Shown: positions 8,421-54,653 of the stretch, piece by piece
How the letters are laid out: each line of letters begins with the position of its first letter
Numbering within the stretch: the first letter of the stretch is position 1
NCBI GenBank assembly: GCA_025355385.1
Contig: JANXZS010000075.1
Location: 1-57,515 of the forward strand
DNA from: Acidobacteriaceae bacterium
GTDB lineage: Bacteria > Acidobacteriota > Terriglobia > Terriglobales > Acidobacteriaceae
Direction of reading: 5' to 3'
DNA length: 57,515 nucleotides
Notes under the pieces: generated by a model
Told to the model about the DNA's origin: nothing
What the model saw: only the letters and a program-made list of their open reading frames with translations
Databases searched by the model: none
Position numbers and translations under genes: made by a program

Positions 8421-8450
8421 CCACGTCTCAAGAGCGAGGCGCGGGCACCA
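8421..8450. repeat. degenerate REP-like palindrome copy
   Basis: The stretch CCACGTCTCAAGAGCGAGGC followed by GCGGGCACC matches the consensus seen at 27858, 32718 and 38745 (a GTCTC/GAGAC palindrome followed by a purine-rich GGGCACC). It lies between convergent genes. The right half is degraded, so this copy is less certain than the others. Confidence 0.45.
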
Positions 8451-13158: not shown

Positions 13159-13839
13159 ATGTTCACAGGATTGGTGGAGCAGATCGGAACTATCGTCAGC
13201 GTGGCGGAGCGCGCCGGGGCCAGACGCATTACCGTGGCTGCACCCGGCATCGCGTCCCGCATCCGCACCGGGGACAGCGTAGCGGTCAGCGGAGTCTGCC
13301 TGACGGCACTCGACATCCAGCCCGACTCCCATCCTCCGGTCTTCCATGCCGATCTGGCGCAGGAGACAGTCAATCGGACTTCACTCGCGATCCTCAAACC
13401 CGGATCTAAGGTGAATCTGGAGCTGCCGACCTCTGCGGGAAGCCCGCTGGGTGGTCACATCGTTCAAGGCCACGTCGACGGAATCGGCAAGTTGGTATCG
13501 CTCACCCAGGTATCGGACGCAGCTGATCCTGACCTGGCCGACTGGTGGCTGAAGGTCACGGTTCCGGAGAATGTCACACGCTTCATGATCGAGAAGGGGT
13601 CGATCGCCGTCGAAGGCATCAGCCTGACGATTGCCAGTTTTCAGCAGGGGCTGCCCGAGGGAGATGTAATCACCATCGCGATCATTCCTCATACCTATCT
13701 GGCAACGAATCTTCATACCATGCATCCCGGCTGGCCCGTCAACATTGAAGCTGATGTCCTGATCAAGTTCGCCGAGCAGCAGAGCCGCGTGCCGCAATTC
13801 GACATGACCGCCGACTTTCTGCTGGCCAACGGGTACTGA
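13159..13839 (+). CDS. ribE: riboflavin synthase alpha subunit
   Basis: A 226-residue protein with the two-fold lumazine-binding repeat: repeat one begins MFTGLVEQIGTIVSV and includes GDSVAVSGVCLTAL, and repeat two includes GHIVQGHVDGIGKL and GSIAVEGISLTIA. The MFTG start is diagnostic. The enzyme dismutates two 6,7-dimethyl-8-ribityllumazine molecules to riboflavin. It follows ribD, forming a small riboflavin cluster; ribH and ribBA are not in this window. Confidence 0.95.
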   Translation: MFTGLVEQIGTIVSVAERAGARRITVAAPGIASRIRTGDSVAVSGVCLTALDIQPDSHPPVFHADLAQETVNRTSLAILKPGSKVNLELPTSAGSPLGGHIVQGHVDGIGKLVSLTQVSDAADPDLADWWLKVTVPENVTRFMIEKGSIAVEGISLTIASFQQGLPEGDVITIAIIPHTYLATNLHTMHPGWPVNIEADVLIKFAEQQSRVPQFDMTADFLLANGY

Positions 13840-14064
13840 CCGATCTGGACCAAATCCAACGCACTCCAACTCAGGCCCGTCCGGGCAGCCCCGCGGCTCT
13901 GTATCAAAAAGAGACACACCTCTGCGGTGTGGGCTATCGGCAGAATTGCGCTAGAGCAGAAGCAGGGTTACTGTAAGCTGCGCCACATATCTCTGCAGGC
14001 ATTTTCATCAAGAAAATGCCCACATCGCTGACGCTGGATACATCACGCTATCCCTGCTTCTGCT
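13840..14064. other. intergenic region holding an inverted-repeat element
   Basis: Apart from the 118-bp element starting at 13951 I see no gene here. Bases 13860–13945 are GC-rich with short imperfect palindromes and nothing I can name. Confidence 0.4.
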
Positions 14065-14068
14065 CTAG
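13951..14068. mobile_element. 118-bp terminal-inverted-repeat element, copy 1 (MITE-like)
   Basis: A perfect 17-bp terminal inverted repeat, CTAGAGCAGAAGCAGGG at 13951–13967 and its reverse complement at 14052–14068, encloses a central hairpin (GGCATTTTC/GAAAATGCC around 13999–14021). The same unit occurs at 53348–53465 with identical length, and a third copy lies at 50019. No transposase is encoded, so it resembles a non-autonomous element or a structured intergenic repeat. No clear target-site duplication is visible at the edges. Confidence 0.8.
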
Positions 14069-14691: not shown

Positions 14692-15972
14692 CTACTGTGG
14701 CGTGATGATGCCGCCCACCCGGCTTTTTGCGGGTAGCTCGATGCCCCGGTGATCCCGCTCCACCACTGCGCTTTTCCCCGCAACGCCGCTGGCATTCGGT
14801 CGCGCCAGGCGCATGGCCTCCGCAATCACATCCGTATACTTCAGTCCCGCGCCAGTGTTGAAGAGGACCACGCGATCGCTGGACTTCAGGTCTCCCGTTG
14901 CTATCAGTTGATCGTAGGCCGCAGTGGCGGCTGCTCCCTCGGGCGATAGCAGAATGCCTTCGTGTTTCGCCCAATCCAGCAGCGAGGCAAGGATGGCCTC
15001 GTCCGGGAGATCCAGGGCCATTCCCCCCGACTCCCGCAGGATCTCGAGAATAATGGCATCCCCATAAGGCTTAGGCACGCGCAGACCCGAGGCGAAGGTA
15101 TTGGCGTTGGCAAAGAATTGCGACACCGGGGCACCCTGTTGAAACGCGCGAGCCACGGGAGCGCACCCTGAGGATTGCAGGGCGAACATCCGCGGCCTCT
15201 TGCCAGCCCGAACCCAGCCCAGTGCTTCCATCTCTTCGAAGGCCTTCCACATACCGATCAGGCCGACCCCGCCGCCGGTGGGATAGAAGACGGCCTCGGG
15301 GTACTCCCAGCCAAGCTGCTCCACCAATTCGTAGCCCATGGTCTTCTTGCCTTCGACGCGGAAGGGCTCTTTAAGTGTTGAGATATCGAACCAGCCCTCC
15401 TGATGACTGCGCTCGGCGATGATGCGGGCACAATCGGAGATGAGGCCGTCTACGAGCGTCACATTGGCTCCATAGGCCACACACTCCAGGTAGTTGGCGA
15501 AGGGTACATCGCGCGGCATGAAGATGTTCGCCTCAATACCGGCGGCCGCCGCATAGGCGGCAAGGGCTCCGGCGGCGTTGCCAGCGGAGGGAACAGCCAG
15601 CTTTTTGATTCCATAGTTCCGTGCCATCGAGACGGCGAGTGAGAGTCCCCGCGCCTTGAAGGTTCCGGTGGGATTGTTCGCCTCTTCCTTGAGGAAAAGG
15701 TTGGGATTGCGGCGGCTGCTGAGCATCGGGGTCCAGCCCTCGCCCAAAGTTACCGGCTCCACATCAGGCAGGACGCCCGCATAGCGCCACATGCCGGGAC
15801 TGGGAGCGCGGTCGGCCGCCTGGGAATCAGGCCGAGCAGCTGACTGCCGCAGCGCGTCCATCTCATAGCGGACGTACAAGGCTCCAGCGCACGCAGGACA
15901 AACGGTTTGCGGGGTAGCGGCCGATACATGGACGTGGCAGCGGGAGCACTCAAGGAAGGCAATTGCCGGCAT
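14692..15972 (-). CDS. thrC: threonine synthase
   Basis: A 426-residue PLP enzyme. The N terminus carries a zinc-ribbon-like C-x-x-C...C-x-x-C (CSRCHVH and CPACAG), seen in one branch of threonine synthases. The PLP lysine lies in NNPTGTFKARGLSL, the phosphate-binding loop is PSAGNAAGALAAYAA, and a glycine loop reads YPTGGGVGLIGM. It converts O-phosphohomoserine to threonine. It is transcribed alone and divergently from the HAD hydrolase with an 81-base gap; hom and thrB are not in this window. Confidence 0.9.
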   Translation of the reverse strand: MPAIAFLECSRCHVHVSAATPQTVCPACAGALYVRYEMDALRQSAARPDSQAADRAPSPGMWRYAGVLPDVEPVTLGEGWTPMLSSRRNPNLFLKEEANNPTGTFKARGLSLAVSMARNYGIKKLAVPSAGNAAGALAAYAAAAGIEANIFMPRDVPFANYLECVAYGANVTLVDGLISDCARIIAERSHQEGWFDISTLKEPFRVEGKKTMGYELVEQLGWEYPEAVFYPTGGGVGLIGMWKAFEEMEALGWVRAGKRPRMFALQSSGCAPVARAFQQGAPVSQFFANANTFASGLRVPKPYGDAIILEILRESGGMALDLPDEAILASLLDWAKHEGILLSPEGAAATAAYDQLIATGDLKSSDRVVLFNTGAGLKYTDVIAEAMRLARPNASGVAGKSAVVERDHRGIELPAKSRVGGIITPQ

Positions 15973-32650: not shown

Positions 32651-32717
32651 CCGGCCGTCTGGTACGGATTGAGAACTGAGGATCTAGCCAAACGGACACG
32701 CCGCCCAGTTCCGCATC

Positions 32718-32752
32718 GTGCCCCACGTCTCAAAAGTGAGACACGAGCACCC
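32718..32752. repeat. REP-like palindrome copy
   Basis: GTGCCCCACGTCTCAAAAGT followed by GAGACACGAGCACCC, a near-consensus member of the GTCTC/GAGAC palindrome family. It lies between RNase J and the threonine dehydratase. Confidence 0.7.
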
Positions 32753-38727: not shown

Positions 38728-38744
38728 AGGTAGATAGCGGAATC

Positions 38745-38776
38745 GGGTGCCCCATGGCTCGATCTTGAGACGTGGG
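38745..38776. repeat. REP-like palindrome copy (first of a pair)
   Basis: GGGTGCCCCATGGCTCGATC followed by TTGAGACGTGGG, one of two direct neighbours between convergent ftsK and the DUF2339 gene. It may serve as a bidirectional terminator. Confidence 0.75.
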
Positions 38777-38790
38777 CGTCAGGGGCGATT

Positions 38791-38822
38791 GGGTGCCCCA
38801 TGTCTCGATTTTGAGACGTGGG
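38791..38822. repeat. REP-like palindrome copy (second of a pair)
   Basis: GGGTGCCCCATGTCTCGATT followed by TTGAGACGTGGG, the most perfect copy, with the same orientation as the copy 46 bases upstream. Its last base directly abuts the TAA stop of the minus-strand gene. Confidence 0.78.
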
Positions 38823-47782: not shown

Positions 47783-49972
47783 ATGATCAGAGTTTCCTTG
47801 TCGCGCGTGGCTGGATTGGTCTTGCCGCTTATTCTTCTAGTTGCAGGTTGCGGCGGCAATACCCCCGGCCCTACCAATGGAAGCTTCAGCATCAATCCGG
47901 CGACGATCAGTCTGGACACGAATACGCAGGAGACCTTCTCCGCGACCCTGAAGAGCGGCCAGACGGCGGACGTAACCTGGCTGGTGGCAGGTGGAGATAG
48001 CACTGCTGGCGCAGGCAGCATCTCTGCCTCAGGTGTCTACACCCCACCCGGCTATCTCACCACGGATTCGGCGCGGGTGCGGGTCAGCGCAACTCTCAAG
48101 AGCAACTCTTCCAGCATCACTACGGCCATCGTCACGGTTACTCCGGGATTCCTGCAGCCGTTGAGCCCAGAGAATTCCTCGCTTACAGCCGGATCGAGTA
48201 TGGATGTTCAAGGCACAATCTCCGAAGTCAGCGGAGGCAAAATCAGCTGGGTGGTCAGCGCGACGGCGAACGGCGGGGATGGAGGCGCTACCCTGGGCAC
48301 CGTGAGCAACAGCTCCTGCATGAGCAGCATCAGCAGCTATACGGCCTGTACCGTCACCTATAAAGCCCCGGCCACACTTCCGGCAAATTCTTCGGTCTAC
48401 GTAGTAGCAGCAGCCAATAGCGGCCCATCCACTACGCCGCTGCACATCCTGCTGAATTCCCAAGGTGTGAACAGTTCGCCGGTGACCAACCAGAATGCGC
48501 AGACGGGCCCCATACAGATGGGCTCATCCGGCGGCAACAACAACGACTACGATACCCAGAATGACCAGAGCGGCGCTACCTTCATCAGCGATTGCTGTGG
48601 AGGAACGCTGGGCTCCATCGTGGAGGACAGCACCGGCACACACTACCTTTTGAGCAACAACCACGTCCTCGCCGAGTCTGACCAGGCGCGTGTGGGGGAC
48701 TCGATCGTACAGCCGGGCCTGATCGATGGCGGCTGCACTCCCTACGGCCAGACCGGCGCCAGCGTTCGGCCGGTAGGAACTCTCAGCGCGTATGTGCCTC
48801 TCTCCAGCACGCAGACAAATGTGGACGCAGCCATAGCCCGTATCGATACCGCGGCGGTGGATTCCTCGGGCGCGATTCTGCAGATCGGCTCGCAGCAATC
48901 GGGTCTGCTGGCGGCATCGCCTCCCGCGGGCGGCACAGGCGAGGCACTCTCGGCCGGGAGCTTCAGCTCAGGGTCGTTGCGAGTGGTCAAGAGCGGACGC
49001 AGCACCGGGCTCACCTGCTCCACGATTGAATCCATCAGCCAGAATGTTAACGTGGATTACTTCAAGGACTGCGCCCAGAGCACGAGCTATCTGACCAAAA
49101 CCTACACCAACCAGATCTCCATTGGCGGCAACAGTTTCACCGATGCCGGCGACTCCGGCTCGCTCATCCTGGACGCCAGCAATGCCCAACCCATCGGCCT
49201 CTTCTACGCGGCAGGCAGCGGCTTCAGCATTGCCAGTCCCATAGGGGAGGTGCTCAGCGAACTGGCCCTCCAGGCGGGCCAGAGCAGTGGAAGCTTCAAG
49301 GTTACGGGCGGCGGTCAGCACGCGATTTCGTGTCTGAACTATGACACCAACACCGTGACTGCCGCATCTCTCGTCAGCGTCTCCCCTGCGGCGATGAAAG
49401 TAGCCCAGCAAGCGGCCAATCTCGCAGCGGCCTCCCTTGTGGACGCAAAAAAGGGAATTCTGGGAACTGCCCCCGGCAAGAGCGCAGACAGTCCCGGAGA
49501 AGCGGCGGTAATCGTCTACGTGGATGAAGAGAAGCAATACGTAAGCGTCCCCGCGACAATTAGCGGTGTGCGAACGGTCATCATCCCGGCGACGGCAAAT
49601 AGCGTTGCCAGCCATTCCGCCTCGGCGTACCGCTTGGTCCCCGCGGGGATACACCTTTCCGCCAGCGTCTTAACCCCGGCCATCGCGGTGAAGGAACAGA
49701 GCTGGAAATCGCTGATGAGCGATCCCGCGTTCTTCGGGGTGGGCGTCTCGCAAAGCCATGACAATCCCACCGAGGCCTCCTTGCTGGTCTATGTGGATCG
49801 CAAGGAGATGCCGCGTGCGAAGCCCGCGACCATCGGCGGCTTGCGGGTGCGCTATGTGTCGATGGACAGATTGCACGTGACACGGTCGACCGCTATCGGC
49901 CTGCCACATCCGTCCAGTTGCGCCATTCGCTCCCTCGCAGCAAATTCGCTTCGGCTGGATTCGCAGCAATAG
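47783..49972 (+). CDS. secreted lipoprotein with Ig-like and trypsin-like protease domains
   Basis: About 729 residues from ATG 47783. The signal ends in a lipobox (LILLVAGC). Residues ~30–230 hold two bacterial Ig-like modules. Residues ~270–510 form a trypsin-like domain with all three catalytic residues in order: histidine in LSNNHVLA (about 294), aspartate in NVDAAIARID (about 348) and serine in DAGDSGSLIL (about 458). Two similar C-terminal units follow (near residues 557 and 649), each with a G-x-G start, VYVD and an A-T-I-x-G motif. A surface or periplasmic serine protease is likely; the C-terminal duplication may be regulatory. Confidence 0.85.
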   Translation: MIRVSLSRVAGLVLPLILLVAGCGGNTPGPTNGSFSINPATISLDTNTQETFSATLKSGQTADVTWLVAGGDSTAGAGSISASGVYTPPGYLTTDSARVRVSATLKSNSSSITTAIVTVTPGFLQPLSPENSSLTAGSSMDVQGTISEVSGGKISWVVSATANGGDGGATLGTVSNSSCMSSISSYTACTVTYKAPATLPANSSVYVVAAANSGPSTTPLHILLNSQGVNSSPVTNQNAQTGPIQMGSSGGNNNDYDTQNDQSGATFISDCCGGTLGSIVEDSTGTHYLLSNNHVLAESDQARVGDSIVQPGLIDGGCTPYGQTGASVRPVGTLSAYVPLSSTQTNVDAAIARIDTAAVDSSGAILQIGSQQSGLLAASPPAGGTGEALSAGSFSSGSLRVVKSGRSTGLTCSTIESISQNVNVDYFKDCAQSTSYLTKTYTNQISIGGNSFTDAGDSGSLILDASNAQPIGLFYAAGSGFSIASPIGEVLSELALQAGQSSGSFKVTGGGQHAISCLNYDTNTVTAASLVSVSPAAMKVAQQAANLAAASLVDAKKGILGTAPGKSADSPGEAAVIVYVDEEKQYVSVPATISGVRTVIIPATANSVASHSASAYRLVPAGIHLSASVLTPAIAVKEQSWKSLMSDPAFFGVGVSQSHDNPTEASLLVYVDRKEMPRAKPATIGGLRVRYVSMDRLHVTRSTAIGLPHPSSCAIRSLAANSLRLDSQQ

Positions 49973-50018
49973 TGCCCAGCGCGGATCGGATTCACAGCAG
50001 ATGTAGCTCTTTAGTTCC

Positions 50019-50136
50019 CCAGAGCAGAAGCAGGGTTAATGTAAGATAAAGCGTAGATCTCTGCCGGCATTTTTATTGAGGAAATGCCTACATCGCTCAC
50101 GCTGGATACATCACACGATCCCTGCTTCCTTAACAA
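50019..50136. mobile_element. 118-bp terminal-inverted-repeat element, copy 2 (right end degraded)
   Basis: The left end CCAGAGCAGAAGCAGGG, the central GGCATTTTT/AGGAAATGCC hairpin and the CTGGATACATCACACGATCC block match copies 1 and 3. The right inverted repeat is preserved only through CCCTGCTTC (to 50128), after which sequence diverges. It lies between the trypsin-like lipoprotein and the histidine kinase. Confidence 0.7.
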
Positions 50137-50210: not shown

Positions 50211-52115
50211 CTATCTCTGCCGTCGGTGCTCCAAACGCTGTTCCATCCCGAGCTCGACGGCACTCGCATCGACCGGCTTCTCGGGAAAGAAAAGCATGAA
50301 TACAGTGCCCGGTGGCATGCCGCTCGAAGCGGGCCGACTGCGCACGCAAACCAGGCCATCGTGCTTTTGGATAATCTCAGCGCTGACCCACAGGCCCAGA
50401 CCCGTCCCGGTAACTTCTTTCGTCGTGAAAAATGGTTCGAAGATGTGTTTGCGAACCGACGCATCCATACCCGAGCCGGTGTCGGCCACGAAGATTCGGA
50501 CGCCCCCGATGGCGGGGTCTTTCCACGAGCACGATCGGCGGACTGCCACGGTGAGGCGCCCACCGAGAGGCATGGCATCGACCGCGTTGCCAACCAGATT
50601 CGCGAAGAGCTGGCGCATCTCCCCAGCAAAACAAAACAGGTCACTTCCGCCCCTGTAGTCTTGTCTCACCTCGATATTGAAGCCGTTCATGCGTCCCTGG
50701 TGCAATGTCAGCACGGAGTCGATCAGATCCGGCACGTTGGAGAGCACCGGTAAGGTGGATTGGCGATAGAAGCGGAGAGTCTGCTGGGTAATCTCCGAGA
50801 CGCGCGCAACCTCATGCTGCGCCATCTCAGCGTATCTCCGCGCCTCCCGATCGAGCGATCCGTTCAGGTTCAGAAGGTATAGCAGGTTGGTAATTGCCTC
50901 CAGGGGATTATTGATCTCGTGGGCAATCGAAGCCGCCAGTCTGCCTGCGGCAGCCAACTTTTCGGTCTTGCGCAGCGCCTCCTCCGAGCGAATGCGCTCG
51001 GTGGTATCAACAATGATGGCGCCCACCCAGCGCACCGGTTGGGTGCCCGTCCGTACGGGATACAGGTTGACTAGCCAGTTACGCGGCACTCCCGGCTGGT
51101 TCGGAAGTTCGCCGCTCAGCTCAACGTCCTGTACCGCCTTTCCCGTGGTAAAAACTGTGCGGATATGTTCCTCCACCTCAAAGGATGCCGCAATGGGAAA
51201 AAGCTCCGATGGAGATTTACCCAGGTGCTGGCTGACCGGCAGCCCGTTCAGATCCGCGAGAAAGCGGTTAATCCGCACATATCGGCACTTGCGGTCGAAG
51301 AATCCAAAACCGGTGGGCGCATTCGCCAGCATAGAATCCAGCAGGGCCAGGGTATCGTTCAGCCCGGAGCGCTGCTCGTCCATGGACGACACCATGAGGT
51401 TGAATGCCGTGGTGAGATCGGAGGCTTCGTTGGAAGAGAGTACCGGTAACGGGAAGCGGTGTTGAGATGCGGGATCGCGGATAAGCTGGCTGGTGCCCTC
51501 GCGCAGCACTGCCAGCGGTTTGGTAATGGATTGGGCCAAAAGCACCGCGACCGCTATAGACGCCAGAATGGTGCATAGGGCATAGATAAAAGTGATGTGC
51601 AGGAGGGAGGAAATCTGGTTGCGATCCGGCTCGGTATCCGCACAGATCCAGGCAAAGCCAATCAGCTTTCCTTCGGCGAGGATGGGGGCTACCCCTTCCT
51701 GGTTGTTGGCATCGATGGCAGCCCGGAACGTCTCGCTGTCATTCATGGGATGAAGATGACTGCGCTCGGTGGGCGACAGAACGAAGAGGCCGTTCGACGT
51801 GGTATCGCTGCTTACAACGGTGCGGCCGCTGGTGTCAGTCACCTGGGCAGCATGGACGGCCGCCGCCTGGATCATCGTATTAACAGTGTCCTGCAACGGA
51901 TCAAACTGCCCGGTGGTCAACAAAGGCGCGGCCTGGATCGCAAGCAGTTTAGCCTGATAATTGAGCCGCCGTTCAGCGCGATGCCGAATCTCCACGGTCT
52001 GCTGGCGCACTAGCGCAAGAGCGAAAGAGAGGAGCAGAAGGCTCTCCGTCACTATCAATCCCGCAATGAGCTGACTGCGAATGGTGCGGGGTTTCAGAAA
52101 ATTCATAGCCTGCAA
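50211..52115 (-). CDS. membrane sensor histidine kinase (HAMP–PAS–HisKA–HATPase)
   Basis: A 634-residue kinase. Two membrane segments (residues ~16–36 and ~170–190) flank an extracytoplasmic sensor of about 130 residues. They are followed by a HAMP (LAQSITKPLAVLREGTSQL), a PAS domain (LLDSMLANAPTGFGFFDRKC), an H box with phospho-histidine in ASIAHEINNPLEAI, an N box (LFANLVGNAVDAMPLGG), and G boxes VADTGSGMD and GTGLGLWVS. It is a full transmitter with no adjacent response regulator, so its partner is elsewhere. It follows the reductase gene by 79 bases on the same strand. Confidence 0.93.
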   Translation of the reverse strand: MQAMNFLKPRTIRSQLIAGLIVTESLLLLSFALALVRQQTVEIRHRAERRLNYQAKLLAIQAAPLLTTGQFDPLQDTVNTMIQAAAVHAAQVTDTSGRTVVSSDTTSNGLFVLSPTERSHLHPMNDSETFRAAIDANNQEGVAPILAEGKLIGFAWICADTEPDRNQISSLLHITFIYALCTILASIAVAVLLAQSITKPLAVLREGTSQLIRDPASQHRFPLPVLSSNEASDLTTAFNLMVSSMDEQRSGLNDTLALLDSMLANAPTGFGFFDRKCRYVRINRFLADLNGLPVSQHLGKSPSELFPIAASFEVEEHIRTVFTTGKAVQDVELSGELPNQPGVPRNWLVNLYPVRTGTQPVRWVGAIIVDTTERIRSEEALRKTEKLAAAGRLAASIAHEINNPLEAITNLLYLLNLNGSLDREARRYAEMAQHEVARVSEITQQTLRFYRQSTLPVLSNVPDLIDSVLTLHQGRMNGFNIEVRQDYRGGSDLFCFAGEMRQLFANLVGNAVDAMPLGGRLTVAVRRSCSWKDPAIGGVRIFVADTGSGMDASVRKHIFEPFFTTKEVTGTGLGLWVSAEIIQKHDGLVCVRSRPASSGMPPGTVFMLFFPEKPVDASAVELGMEQRLEHRRQR

Positions 52116-52194: not shown

Positions 52195-53241
52195 TCACCT
52201 GGCCAAACTCATCTTTTCTGTCAGATCGGATGCAATCTGGTGCCCGTGGAAGCGTCCGTTTTCTATGAAGATCTCATTGGTTCTTTTGCCGGCAACGATT
52301 ACTCCGGCAAGATACACGCCCTGCACATTGCTCTCCAGCGTGCGCCGATCGCATACCGGAAGCCGGTCTTCACCCTCAAGCCGCACTCCCAGGGCAGCAA
52401 GGAAATCAAAGTCGGGATGATATCCCGTCATGGCGAAGACGTAATCATTGGCCACCGTCAGCTCGCCCTTCGGCCCGGCGATGACCGCACTGTCTTCGTT
52501 GACGCGCGCGACATGGGATTGAAAATGGGCCTGAATCTCTCCATTTTTAATTCTGTTTTCTATGTCGGGCAAGATCCAATACTTCACATGCCGGTGCATG
52601 GCGGTGCCACGATGCACCAGCGTAACCCGTGCCCCGTGCCTCCACAGATCAAGCGCGGCGATGGCGGCTGAGTTCTTGCCGCCAATCACCAGCACGTCCA
52701 GATTGAAGTAAGGATGCGGGTCCTGGTAGTAGTGCAGCACCTTCGACAGTTCCTCGCCGGGGATTTTGAGATAATTTGGCAGGTCGTAATACCCGGTGGC
52801 GAGGATGATCTTGCGGGTTAGGAACAGGCGACCGCGCCCGAAGCGGTCCTCGGCCGAGACGCGAAATGCCCCGTCTCCGCCAGCAATATTGAGCACCCGG
52901 TGATACTGGCGAATATCCAGACGGTAATGCTCCGCGACCTTGCGGTAGTACTCCAGTGCCTCGCCGCGGTTGGGCTTCTGGTTGGGGCTGGCAAATGGGA
53001 TGTTGCCGATCTCGAGCAGCTCCGGCGTAGTGAAGAATGTCATGTTCGAGGGATAGTGGAAGAGCGAGTTGCACAGGCAGCCCTTGTCCACCAGCACCAC
53101 GCGCAAACCTAACTGCTGGGCATCAATGGCGCAGGCCAGTCCGGTAGGACCGGCGCCCACCACCAGAACATCAAACTCCTCATGCCCGGAACTCCCAGGC
53201 TCAAACGGAAGCGGGGCGAGGGTGTTGCTGGCTTGACTCAT
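52195..53241 (-). CDS. ypdA: YpdA/Bdr-type FAD-dependent disulfide reductase
   Basis: About 348 residues. It has two nucleotide-binding motifs: VVGAGPTGLACAIDAQQLGL (FAD) and VIGGKNSAAIAALDLWRHG (NADPH). A cysteine-containing segment LVDKGCLCNSLFHYPSNMTFF near residue 60 and TGYHPDFDFL late in the chain match the YpdA family, which reduces bacillithiol disulfide in Bacillus and Staphylococcus. Whether this organism makes bacillithiol cannot be seen here. Start: ATG 53241 with GTG 53259 as an alternative. Confidence 0.85.
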   Translation of the reverse strand: MSQASNTLAPLPFEPGSSGHEEFDVLVVGAGPTGLACAIDAQQLGLRVVLVDKGCLCNSLFHYPSNMTFFTTPELLEIGNIPFASPNQKPNRGEALEYYRKVAEHYRLDIRQYHRVLNIAGGDGAFRVSAEDRFGRGRLFLTRKIILATGYYDLPNYLKIPGEELSKVLHYYQDPHPYFNLDVLVIGGKNSAAIAALDLWRHGARVTLVHRGTAMHRHVKYWILPDIENRIKNGEIQAHFQSHVARVNEDSAVIAGPKGELTVANDYVFAMTGYHPDFDFLAALGVRLEGEDRLPVCDRRTLESNVQGVYLAGVIVAGKRTNEIFIENGRFHGHQIASDLTEKMSLAR

Positions 53242-53347
53242 ATCTTTAGAATACTTCACTCATAGGTCCAGATTCGATGATGTTCCTCTCGTGATGGCAG
53301 TTGATTTTGTTCGGATAGTGGGCGGCAGCTTTCCGTCGCATTCACGG

Positions 53348-53465
53348 CTAGGGCAGAAGCAGGGTTACTGTAAGGTGAGGCGCAAAGCTCTGCAGGCATT
53401 TTCATCAAGAAAATGCCTATATCGCTGGAGCTGGATACATCACACCATCCCTGTTTCTGCTCTAG
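53348..53465. mobile_element. 118-bp terminal-inverted-repeat element, copy 3
   Basis: CTAGGGCAGAAGCAGGG at 53348–53364 and the matching right end at 53449–53465 (two differences from perfect inversion) enclose the same central GGCATTTTC/GAAAATGCC hairpin as copy 1. Length is 118 bases, identical to copy 1. It lies between the YpdA gene and the membrane protein gene. Confidence 0.8.
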
Positions 53466-53882: not shown

Positions 53883-54653
53883 TTGGCGACAAACGCGGTC
53901 CTCGCGCAGCTACCCGGTCAAGCGTCCCGATACAGACCTGTCAATCGAACCGTGGAACGCGTGTTCTACAGCGCCATGGCGATCCTGATGTGCGTCGTCG
54001 TCTTCATTGGCTTTTCGCCAACTTACTTTCAGGCCGGCATGATGCGAGCGCCGCTGCCCAGTCCTATCCTTCACGTCCACGGGGCAGTCTTCACCCTCTG
54101 GATGCTGTTGTTCGTCGTTCAGGCCGCGTTCATCTCCACTCGCCACGTCCAATGGCATCGTTCCCTTGGCACCATCGCGTTTTGTCTTCCGCCCATCATG
54201 ATTGTTCTCGGCGTGATCGCTGCGATAGACGCGCTTCACCGCGGGGTGCGGATCGGCCCGCTCGACCCCGCTGTCTCGCTTGCAATCCCGCTGATCGGGA
54301 TCGTTGGCTTCACCATCGCGATCTATGCCTCCTGGCGGGCCCGGCGCAGGCCGGACGCGCATAAGCGCCTTATCCTGATCGCCACCATGGGGCTTGTCGC
54401 CGCAGCGTTCGGACGCCTTCCCTGGAGCCGCATTGGACTGCCGCCCGCCGCAGGAGCCGTCACCGGCCTCGGCGCCCTGCTTCTGCTGCTCATCGTCTAC
54501 GAACTCATCACGATCCGCCGCGTCCACCGCTCCACAATGTGGGCCGCGCCCCTTACGTTCGCCTCCGTCGCCCTCGCCGTCCCCATTGGAATGACACCCG
54601 CTTGGCACACCTTCGCCGCATTGCTCAACCGAACCATCGGGATGCAGCTATAG
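53883..54653 (+). CDS. hypothetical integral membrane protein
   Basis: A 256-residue protein with about seven hydrophobic segments (YSAMAILMCVVVFIGFSPTY, HVHGAVFTLWMLLFVVQAAF, and others) and short charged loops; H-x-H in the first loop pair and a histidine in HRSLGTI are the only obvious ligand-like residues. It resembles small haem- or quinone-linked membrane proteins of unknown function, but no family is recognised with confidence. The start is TTG, supported by GGAGAAG at six bases. It lies in a patchy region with repeats on both sides, so transfer is possible. Confidence 0.65.
   Translation: MATNAVLAQLPGQASRYRPVNRTVERVFYSAMAILMCVVVFIGFSPTYFQAGMMRAPLPSPILHVHGAVFTLWMLLFVVQAAFISTRHVQWHRSLGTIAFCLPPIMIVLGVIAAIDALHRGVRIGPLDPAVSLAIPLIGIVGFTIAIYASWRARRRPDAHKRLILIATMGLVAAAFGRLPWSRIGLPPAAGAVTGLGALLLLLIVYELITIRRVHRSTMWAAPLTFASVALAVPIGMTPAWHTFAALLNRTIGMQL

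Follow-up and report, generated by a model that had tools for sequence, protein, structure and literature searches.

Enterobacterial ERIC/IRU sequences are fold-back palindromes, BOX elements are modular and variable in length, unlike the 118-bp element considered here, and IS630, as Tenzen and Ohtsubo are said to have found in 1991, prefers a TA that lies within CTAG. The closest precedent for the 118-bp element, to which we liken it by description, is RUP, a 107-bp repeat described as having 9-bp inverted repeats, a TA target and ends similar to those of an IS630 element, with IS630-Spn1 as the proposed mover (PMC2229807). RUP is tightly folded and enriched between convergent genes, and its row in the published table counts 23 copies lying between convergent genes and 65 lying upstream of one or more genes (PMC3049150). 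The 118-bp elements share with RUP the inverted repeats, the TA target, the IS630-like ends and the tight fold (PMC2229807, PMC3049150). They differ in that their inverted repeats are 17-19 bp long rather than 9 bp (PMC2229807), in that the family is found in 26 of the 79 genera sampled, its ends exchanged and its length nearly constant, and in their stronger convergent placement, 58 of 81 copies against the 23 convergent copies of RUP (PMC3049150).

Other described repeats share some of these features. ERIC/IRU is a 127-bp intergenic MITE with TA termini and 7-bp inverted repeats; the elements described here resemble it in a size of about 120 bp, in the TA at the termini and in intergenic position (PMC2229807), and differ in their covarying 17-19-bp arms and in an IS630 partner class with matching outer ends. 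BOX, from Streptococcus pneumoniae, is enriched between convergent genes and encodes the stop codon of a gene in 36 cases, and both the convergent enrichment and the sharing of stop codons recur in the 118-bp element (PMC3049150). MITEPsy1 of Pseudomonas syringae, with a length of 100 bp and inverted repeats of 18 bp, is reported to use CTAG or YTAA as insertion sites, to duplicate 4 nt there and possibly to originate from ISPsy2 (perhaps of the IS5 family) (PMC3189936), whereas the end statistics of the 118-bp element fit TA rather than 4 nt. ISY100 undergoes Tc1/mariner-type transposition with duplication of TA (PMC2170065); the TA target is common to IS630 and ISY100 and to the 118-bp element, which has no transposase gene of its own. 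Neither 'Acidobacter' nor 'IS630' appears in the main text of a 2024 review of prokaryotic MITEs (PMC10969869), and no description of a 118-bp element family was found in the literature searched, which left out most subscription journals.

Here we describe such a family from an Acidobacteriaceae bacterium and its relatives, and propose that its members are very probably non-autonomous MITEs that IS630-family (Tc1/mariner-type) transposases move in trans by cut and paste. The window, that is the whole stretch of 57,515 nucleotides that was analysed, is contig C225 of a 4.63-Mb draft assembly in 321 contigs. Its features are given below, with genes called by a home-made codon model that was trained on ORFs of the same-genus genome G001 and of the window and is approximate.

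13159-13839 (+) and 14692-15792 (-): genes around copy 1, convergent (codon-model gene caller)
13951..14068, minus strand: 118-bp element copy 1, with perfect 17-bp ends
13951..13967, no strand: copy 1 terminal inverted repeat with C-TA-G; putative TA target duplication at 13952-13953
14052..14068, no strand: copy 1 terminal inverted repeat with C-TA-G; putative TA target duplication at 14066-14067
13998..14020, no strand: copy 1 central hairpin, GGCATTTTC-loop-GAAAATGCC; the helix covaries between subfamilies
47807-49972 (+) and 50211-52106 (-): genes around copy 2, convergent (codon-model gene caller)
50019..50136, minus strand: 118-bp element copy 2, lowest score among the 87 full copies of the genome; right outer end eroded
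50066..50088, no strand: copy 2 central hairpin
52195-53241 (-) and 53952-54653 (+): genes around copy 3, divergent (codon-model gene caller)
53348..53465, minus strand: 118-bp element copy 3, one of only 2 divergent placements among 81
53395..53417, no strand: copy 3 central hairpin

A repeat search and a covariance model place the three copies in register as one family, as the preliminary description had held, and the model match spans the 118 bp given there in each of them; the repeat search sets the family at 13950-14068, 50018-50136 and 53347-53465, and in it the other two copies are 77% and 88% identical to copy 1. The 17-bp inverted repeats attributed to their ends are perfect in copy 1 (CTAGAGCAGAAGCAGGG), and in copy 3 the whole arm is paired if G-U pairs are counted, but copy 2 has lost its outer right end, although GAGCAGAAGCAGGG...CCCTGCTTC is still exact in it. 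The latter pattern is met three times in the window, on both strands in copy 1 and on a single strand in copy 2, and never in 100 dinucleotide shuffles. The minus strand of copy 1 folds with an energy of -62.7 kcal/mol against -33.9 in shuffles (z -9.2, and -5.8 for the plus strand), and copies 2 and 3 give z values of -3.4 and -7.1. By our own gene caller all three copies are intergenic, and the central hairpin is real in that its helix covaries between subfamilies, so that both of these earlier observations stand. None of the three, two of them convergent and one divergent, coincides with a stop codon, and at gathering scores the Rfam families have no match in any part of the window.

A covariance model built from 32 copies (R1) and searched against the window's genome returned 87 full copies of 117-124 bp, mostly of exactly 118 bp, rather than only the three, the case in which the preliminary description had held mobility to be doubtful. 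Two further matches were an internally deleted copy of 86 bp (C137:191-276) and a weak partial copy (C25:838-960). With its 118 bp the element has no room for a transposase gene, and together with its 17-bp ends and 87 dispersed full copies this gives it the features of a MITE. The mean divergence of the copies from their consensus is 6.6%, and since no two are nearly identical (the closest pair shares 95.8%) there is no sign of recent movement. Nearest-neighbour identity is 0.932 against 0.930 after permutation of the alignment columns, indicating that divergence is close to star-like, and no clear subfamilies could be distinguished among the 87. The spread of pairwise identity is slightly wider than in the permuted alignment (0.0334 vs 0.0295 +- 0.0020), and a few sites are weakly linked. 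The most variable positions are 1, 4-5, 19-22, much of 81-92, and 114. Plasmid and phage collections held no match to the element, and a pattern scan of GTDB contigs, which may exclude this genome and those near it, gave one match, in a Bacteroidetes bin, that did not match the element model.

The ends of the copies read YTAG...CTAR, and 72 of the 87 carry TA just inward of the outermost base at either end. By these outermost bases 52 copies are C..G, 24 T..G, 7 C..A, 1 T..A and 3 of other combinations, and a left TTAG goes mostly with a right CTAG and rarely with TTAG. Such one-sided ends suggest that only TA is duplicated and argue against a duplication of 4 bp; target duplications of 4 bp or 6 bp were not supported, direct repeats beyond TA being rare once the one-sided variants are counted. 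A symmetric target does not explain the excess of T..G over C..A ends (24 vs 7). The right flank is rich in C, with C as its second base in 41 of 87 copies, and the base following the right end is C in 37, T in 24, G in 17 and A in 9.

No copy in the genome lies inside a called gene. Among the 81 copies with genes on both sides, 58 are convergent, 21 tandem and 2 divergent, where 21.6% convergent, 54.9% tandem and 23.5% divergent would be expected from the intergenic YTAR sites of the G001 stretch, which is free of the element, when usage of the targets is weighted in (p ~1e-21 for the convergent excess). At 40 of the 87 copies a neighbouring gene, 41 genes in all, has the element's terminal TAG or TAA as its stop codon, where 30.2% would be expected (p 0.002). 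Most of this coincidence follows from the CTAG target together with avoidance of gene bodies, and a modest excess remains. Gene truncation was considered as the source of the stop-coincident copies and rejected, because it would use the three frames about equally, whereas 41 genes have their stop in that terminal triplet and just 4 have it at another place within a copy, three of them at 26 bases and one at 3. Ten of the 41 stop-coincident proteins have a match in the G001 stretch, 7 of them at 82% identity or more, and these 7 differ in length from their orthologs by +1, 0, 0, -1, -3, -2 and -2 residues; the four that are 1-3 residues shorter could reflect ordinary variation or slight trimming. 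The placement illustrates how an element that targets CTAG can enter the ends of genes without damage.

G001 is the only same-genus genome among 60 relatives, in none of which the subfamily of the window was found by DNA search at E 0.001. It is about 80% identical to the window's genome and colinear with it, and 400 kb of it were compared. Both flanks of 13 of the 89 listed copies fall inside these 400 kb; for 12 of the 13 the flanks are colinear and within 2 kb in G001, the thirteenth (C52:17933) being rearranged. Not one of the 12 colinear loci is occupied, and the superfamily model described below finds no element in those 400 kb, which answers the possibility raised in the preliminary description that the copies sit at fixed loci with no empty sites. 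Copy 2 of the window (50019..50136) is among the sequences absent from the colinear place in G001, and at C100:2909 the congener has a native CACTAG stop at the point of insertion.

Beyond this genome, a search of 396 genomes of the phylum, this one among them, with R1 matched 3 others, all of the same bacterial family, over the full model, the matches listed being 117-118 bp long. Further copies, whose end sequences differ, were found in G009, G397, G195 and G227. An alignment of 26 sequences (A3) resolves into arms (columns 1-19/102-120), an inner helix (23-28/93-98) and a hairpin (46-57/64-75). This three-helix rod is paired in 89.2% of cells, its structure having been chosen from the fold of the same sequences, which favours that structure, and 22 of its 36 pairs are changed on both sides. 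Cells that are doubly changed and still paired number 142, against 51.4 in shuffles (0 of 500 reach 142) and 20-35 when the structure is slid. Covarying pairs include 5 of 12 in the hairpin and 4 of 6 in the inner helix. Covariation confined to the arms could be explained by two sites bound by a single transposase, and that of the hairpin and the inner helix needs another reason.

A second model built from A3 (R2) matched 149 of 398 genomes of the bacterial family at E 0.001, own included (148 of the other 397), in 26 of 79 genera; with at most 9 candidates scored per genome, copy numbers from it are lower bounds. Although their end sequences differ, 51 of 55 elements examined are 116-119 bp long (50 of 117-119 bp and one of 116), the others being two of 128 bp, one of 159 and one of 161; a 118-position model favours this length, yet it found the longer elements. 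Convergent placement is seen in 25 of the 48 superfamily elements that have both neighbours (p 3e-6 vs the G001 expectation), stop coincidence in 19 of the 55, no more than expected (p 0.47), and 4 genes have their end at another place within an element. An Rfam search of the elements at 14 loci, at E up to 1, gave three matches, all outside the elements. Long versions carrying genes were sought in G009 and G397 at loci with a single end, of which 30 of 127 places were taken, and were discounted: 24 of the 30 had a model match ending at that end, L223 had a weak one (E 0.07), and L232, L237, L238, L240 and L246 had no match there.

The longer versions vary in the region of the hairpin. L213 and L216, in G009, are 128 bp long and have an additional G+C-rich hairpin, some 10 bp in size, next to the central one, while L254:1323-1481 (159 bp) and L272:772-932 (161 bp) carry a similar insert of about 40 bp (CACCCCAGCGACGAAGACCTGTC...) in the central hairpin. 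The insert, of which a third copy lies at L254:1104, is possibly a further small repeat that has nested in the hairpin. Elements with different end sequences also occur in adjacent pairs, 17-19 bp apart (L254:1323-1481/1501-1618 and L272:772-932/950-1067).

The preliminary description had proposed to look for an autonomous element with matching ends, and a class that matches in the outer ends exists within the same bacterial family, namely IS630 elements with TAGAGC ends and YTAG targets. The example from G013 (L162) is 1,026 bp long including the TA pairs, has perfect ends CTAGAGCATTTTCGATTTAAGT and two overlapping frames, and is inserted at a CTAG on the TAG stop of a 404-codon ORF. It starts CTAGAGCATTTTCG, in which the first 13 bases from the TA are identical to the 118-bp members L252, L253 and L270; in G013 itself R2 detected no 118-bp element. 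The L162 transposase has relatives in 57 of 398 genomes (E 1e-15). Of 30 distinct L162-type loci, 12 had TA-flanked ends that could be detected, the ends being clear in L277, L287 and L293, and 11 of these 12 elements have TAGAGC at both ends (nine) or at one (two), the other, L284, having TAAACC. Five IS630 elements (L167, L169, L171, L181 and L186) have other ends, so the motif is not general to the IS630 family. The 118-bp elements occur in 34 of the 57 genomes with this IS630 clade and in 115 of the 341 others (p 2e-4, both lists being taken as the same 398 genomes and genomes being counted as independent of phylogeny).

The correspondence is less close in the window's genome, whose subfamily has only the first 5-6 bases after the TA in common with the IS630 ends. 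Two partial IS630 transposases (Pfam DDE_3) are present there, neither with matching ends, and no IS630 with GAGCAGAAGCAGGG-like ends was found in this genome or in the 30 loci that were examined for it. A direct association with an intact IS630 in this genome was sought and not found; it is possible that a cognate transposase was lost by misassembly of the draft. Lone ends with one mismatch occur on C13, C58, C64 and C66 among the 100 of 162 places listed, a backwards control pattern giving 6, and both DDE_3 matches are on other contigs than these four. On C312 (L128:1198-1920, minus strand) a partial and apparently decayed IS630 transposase lies about 1.4 kb from one element copy, and this fragment is 42% identical to the L162 transposase over 125 residues.

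The earlier MITE-like reading is supported and can be made specific as IS630-dependent. The copy number, the ends, the empty sites, the gene context, the covariation between subfamilies, the near-constant length and the IS630 elements with matching outer ends are observed, and mobilisation by IS630, duplication of TA on insertion and selection as the cause of placement at gene ends are what we infer. According to this model the transposed unit would be GAGCAG...CTGCTC and its target TA, usually within CTAG and otherwise mostly within YTAR; duplication of the TA would then give ends that read YTAG...CTAR. Insertion at a stop codon would leave the gene intact, because TAG or TAA is the target and the element supplies a G after the duplicated TA. 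Such harmless insertion, together with selection against hits in genes and promoters, would account for the placement at gene ends and between convergent genes.

It could be argued that the elements are instead exapted structured RNAs or 3'-end elements, a bidirectional terminator or RNA-processing site between convergent genes maintaining the fold. The convergent placement, the strong fold on both strands, the covariation between subfamilies in all three helices and the very uneven site rates (variance/mean 4.6 among the 87 copies) are all in keeping with this. However, the pairs of the consensus fold are not maintained in the window's genome, where the 87 copies show 23 double changes against 20.4 expected if independent, 9 of them compensated; the paired sides evidently mutate independently there and the fold is not repaired after insertion, for which reason a conserved RNA under post-insertion constraint was rejected. 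Furthermore, no T run follows the end of the element, the 12 comparable congener loci lack it, Rfam gave no match on the elements in the window or at the 14 loci, and pneumococcal insertion sequences and small repeats are also enriched between convergent genes (PMC3049150), and we therefore regard this explanation as improbable.

Spread in the manner of REP/BIME-type palindromes, by a RAYT (Y1 HUH) transposase acting on single-stranded hairpins, would suit the full-length fold-back, the conserved hairpin, the near-fixed size and the intergenic position at gene ends. We consider it highly unlikely, given that REPs are palindromes of 20-40 bp (PMC3733652), to which a 118-bp size and TA-flanked long arms do not fit, and that long terminal inverted repeats, TA at both ends and YTAR targets in common with IS630 are features of DDE transposons. 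That the elements are old, immobile repeats inherited vertically at fixed loci is scarcely credible: the lack of near-identical pairs and the nearly star-like divergence from the consensus would agree with it, but it is contradicted by the empty sites in the congener and by the patchy presence across the bacterial family.

If the elements are IS630-dependent MITEs, their unusual feature is a near-constant length and a covarying fold across subfamilies whose ends have been exchanged. Our guess is that the transposition complex most likely requires this fixed length and fold. It is conceivable, though we rather doubt it, that the whole folded molecule is selected, as a family-wide IS630-dependent lineage in which the 118-bp three-helix rod is kept while the ends follow different transposases; were this so, length and fold would be read by the transposition machinery, an extruded hairpin or a single-strand intermediate. 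With matches in 149 of 398 sampled genomes, the elements form a class of small mobile DNA that is abundant throughout a bacterial family and of which the literature searched gave no description. They also provide a natural series in which the inverted repeats are exchanged while the length and the internal hairpin stay nearly fixed, which raises the testable question of whether the mobility of bacterial MITEs needs a certain geometry or whether two transposase binding sites suffice.

The window also contains a shorter palindromic repeat of the GTGCCCCACGTCTC...GAGACGTGGG type. Its core has 0 near-matches in 400 kb of G001 and 6 in 239 kb of G000 loci, and the copies in the window lie at 8421-8445, 32713-32743, 38742-38776 and 38788-38822.
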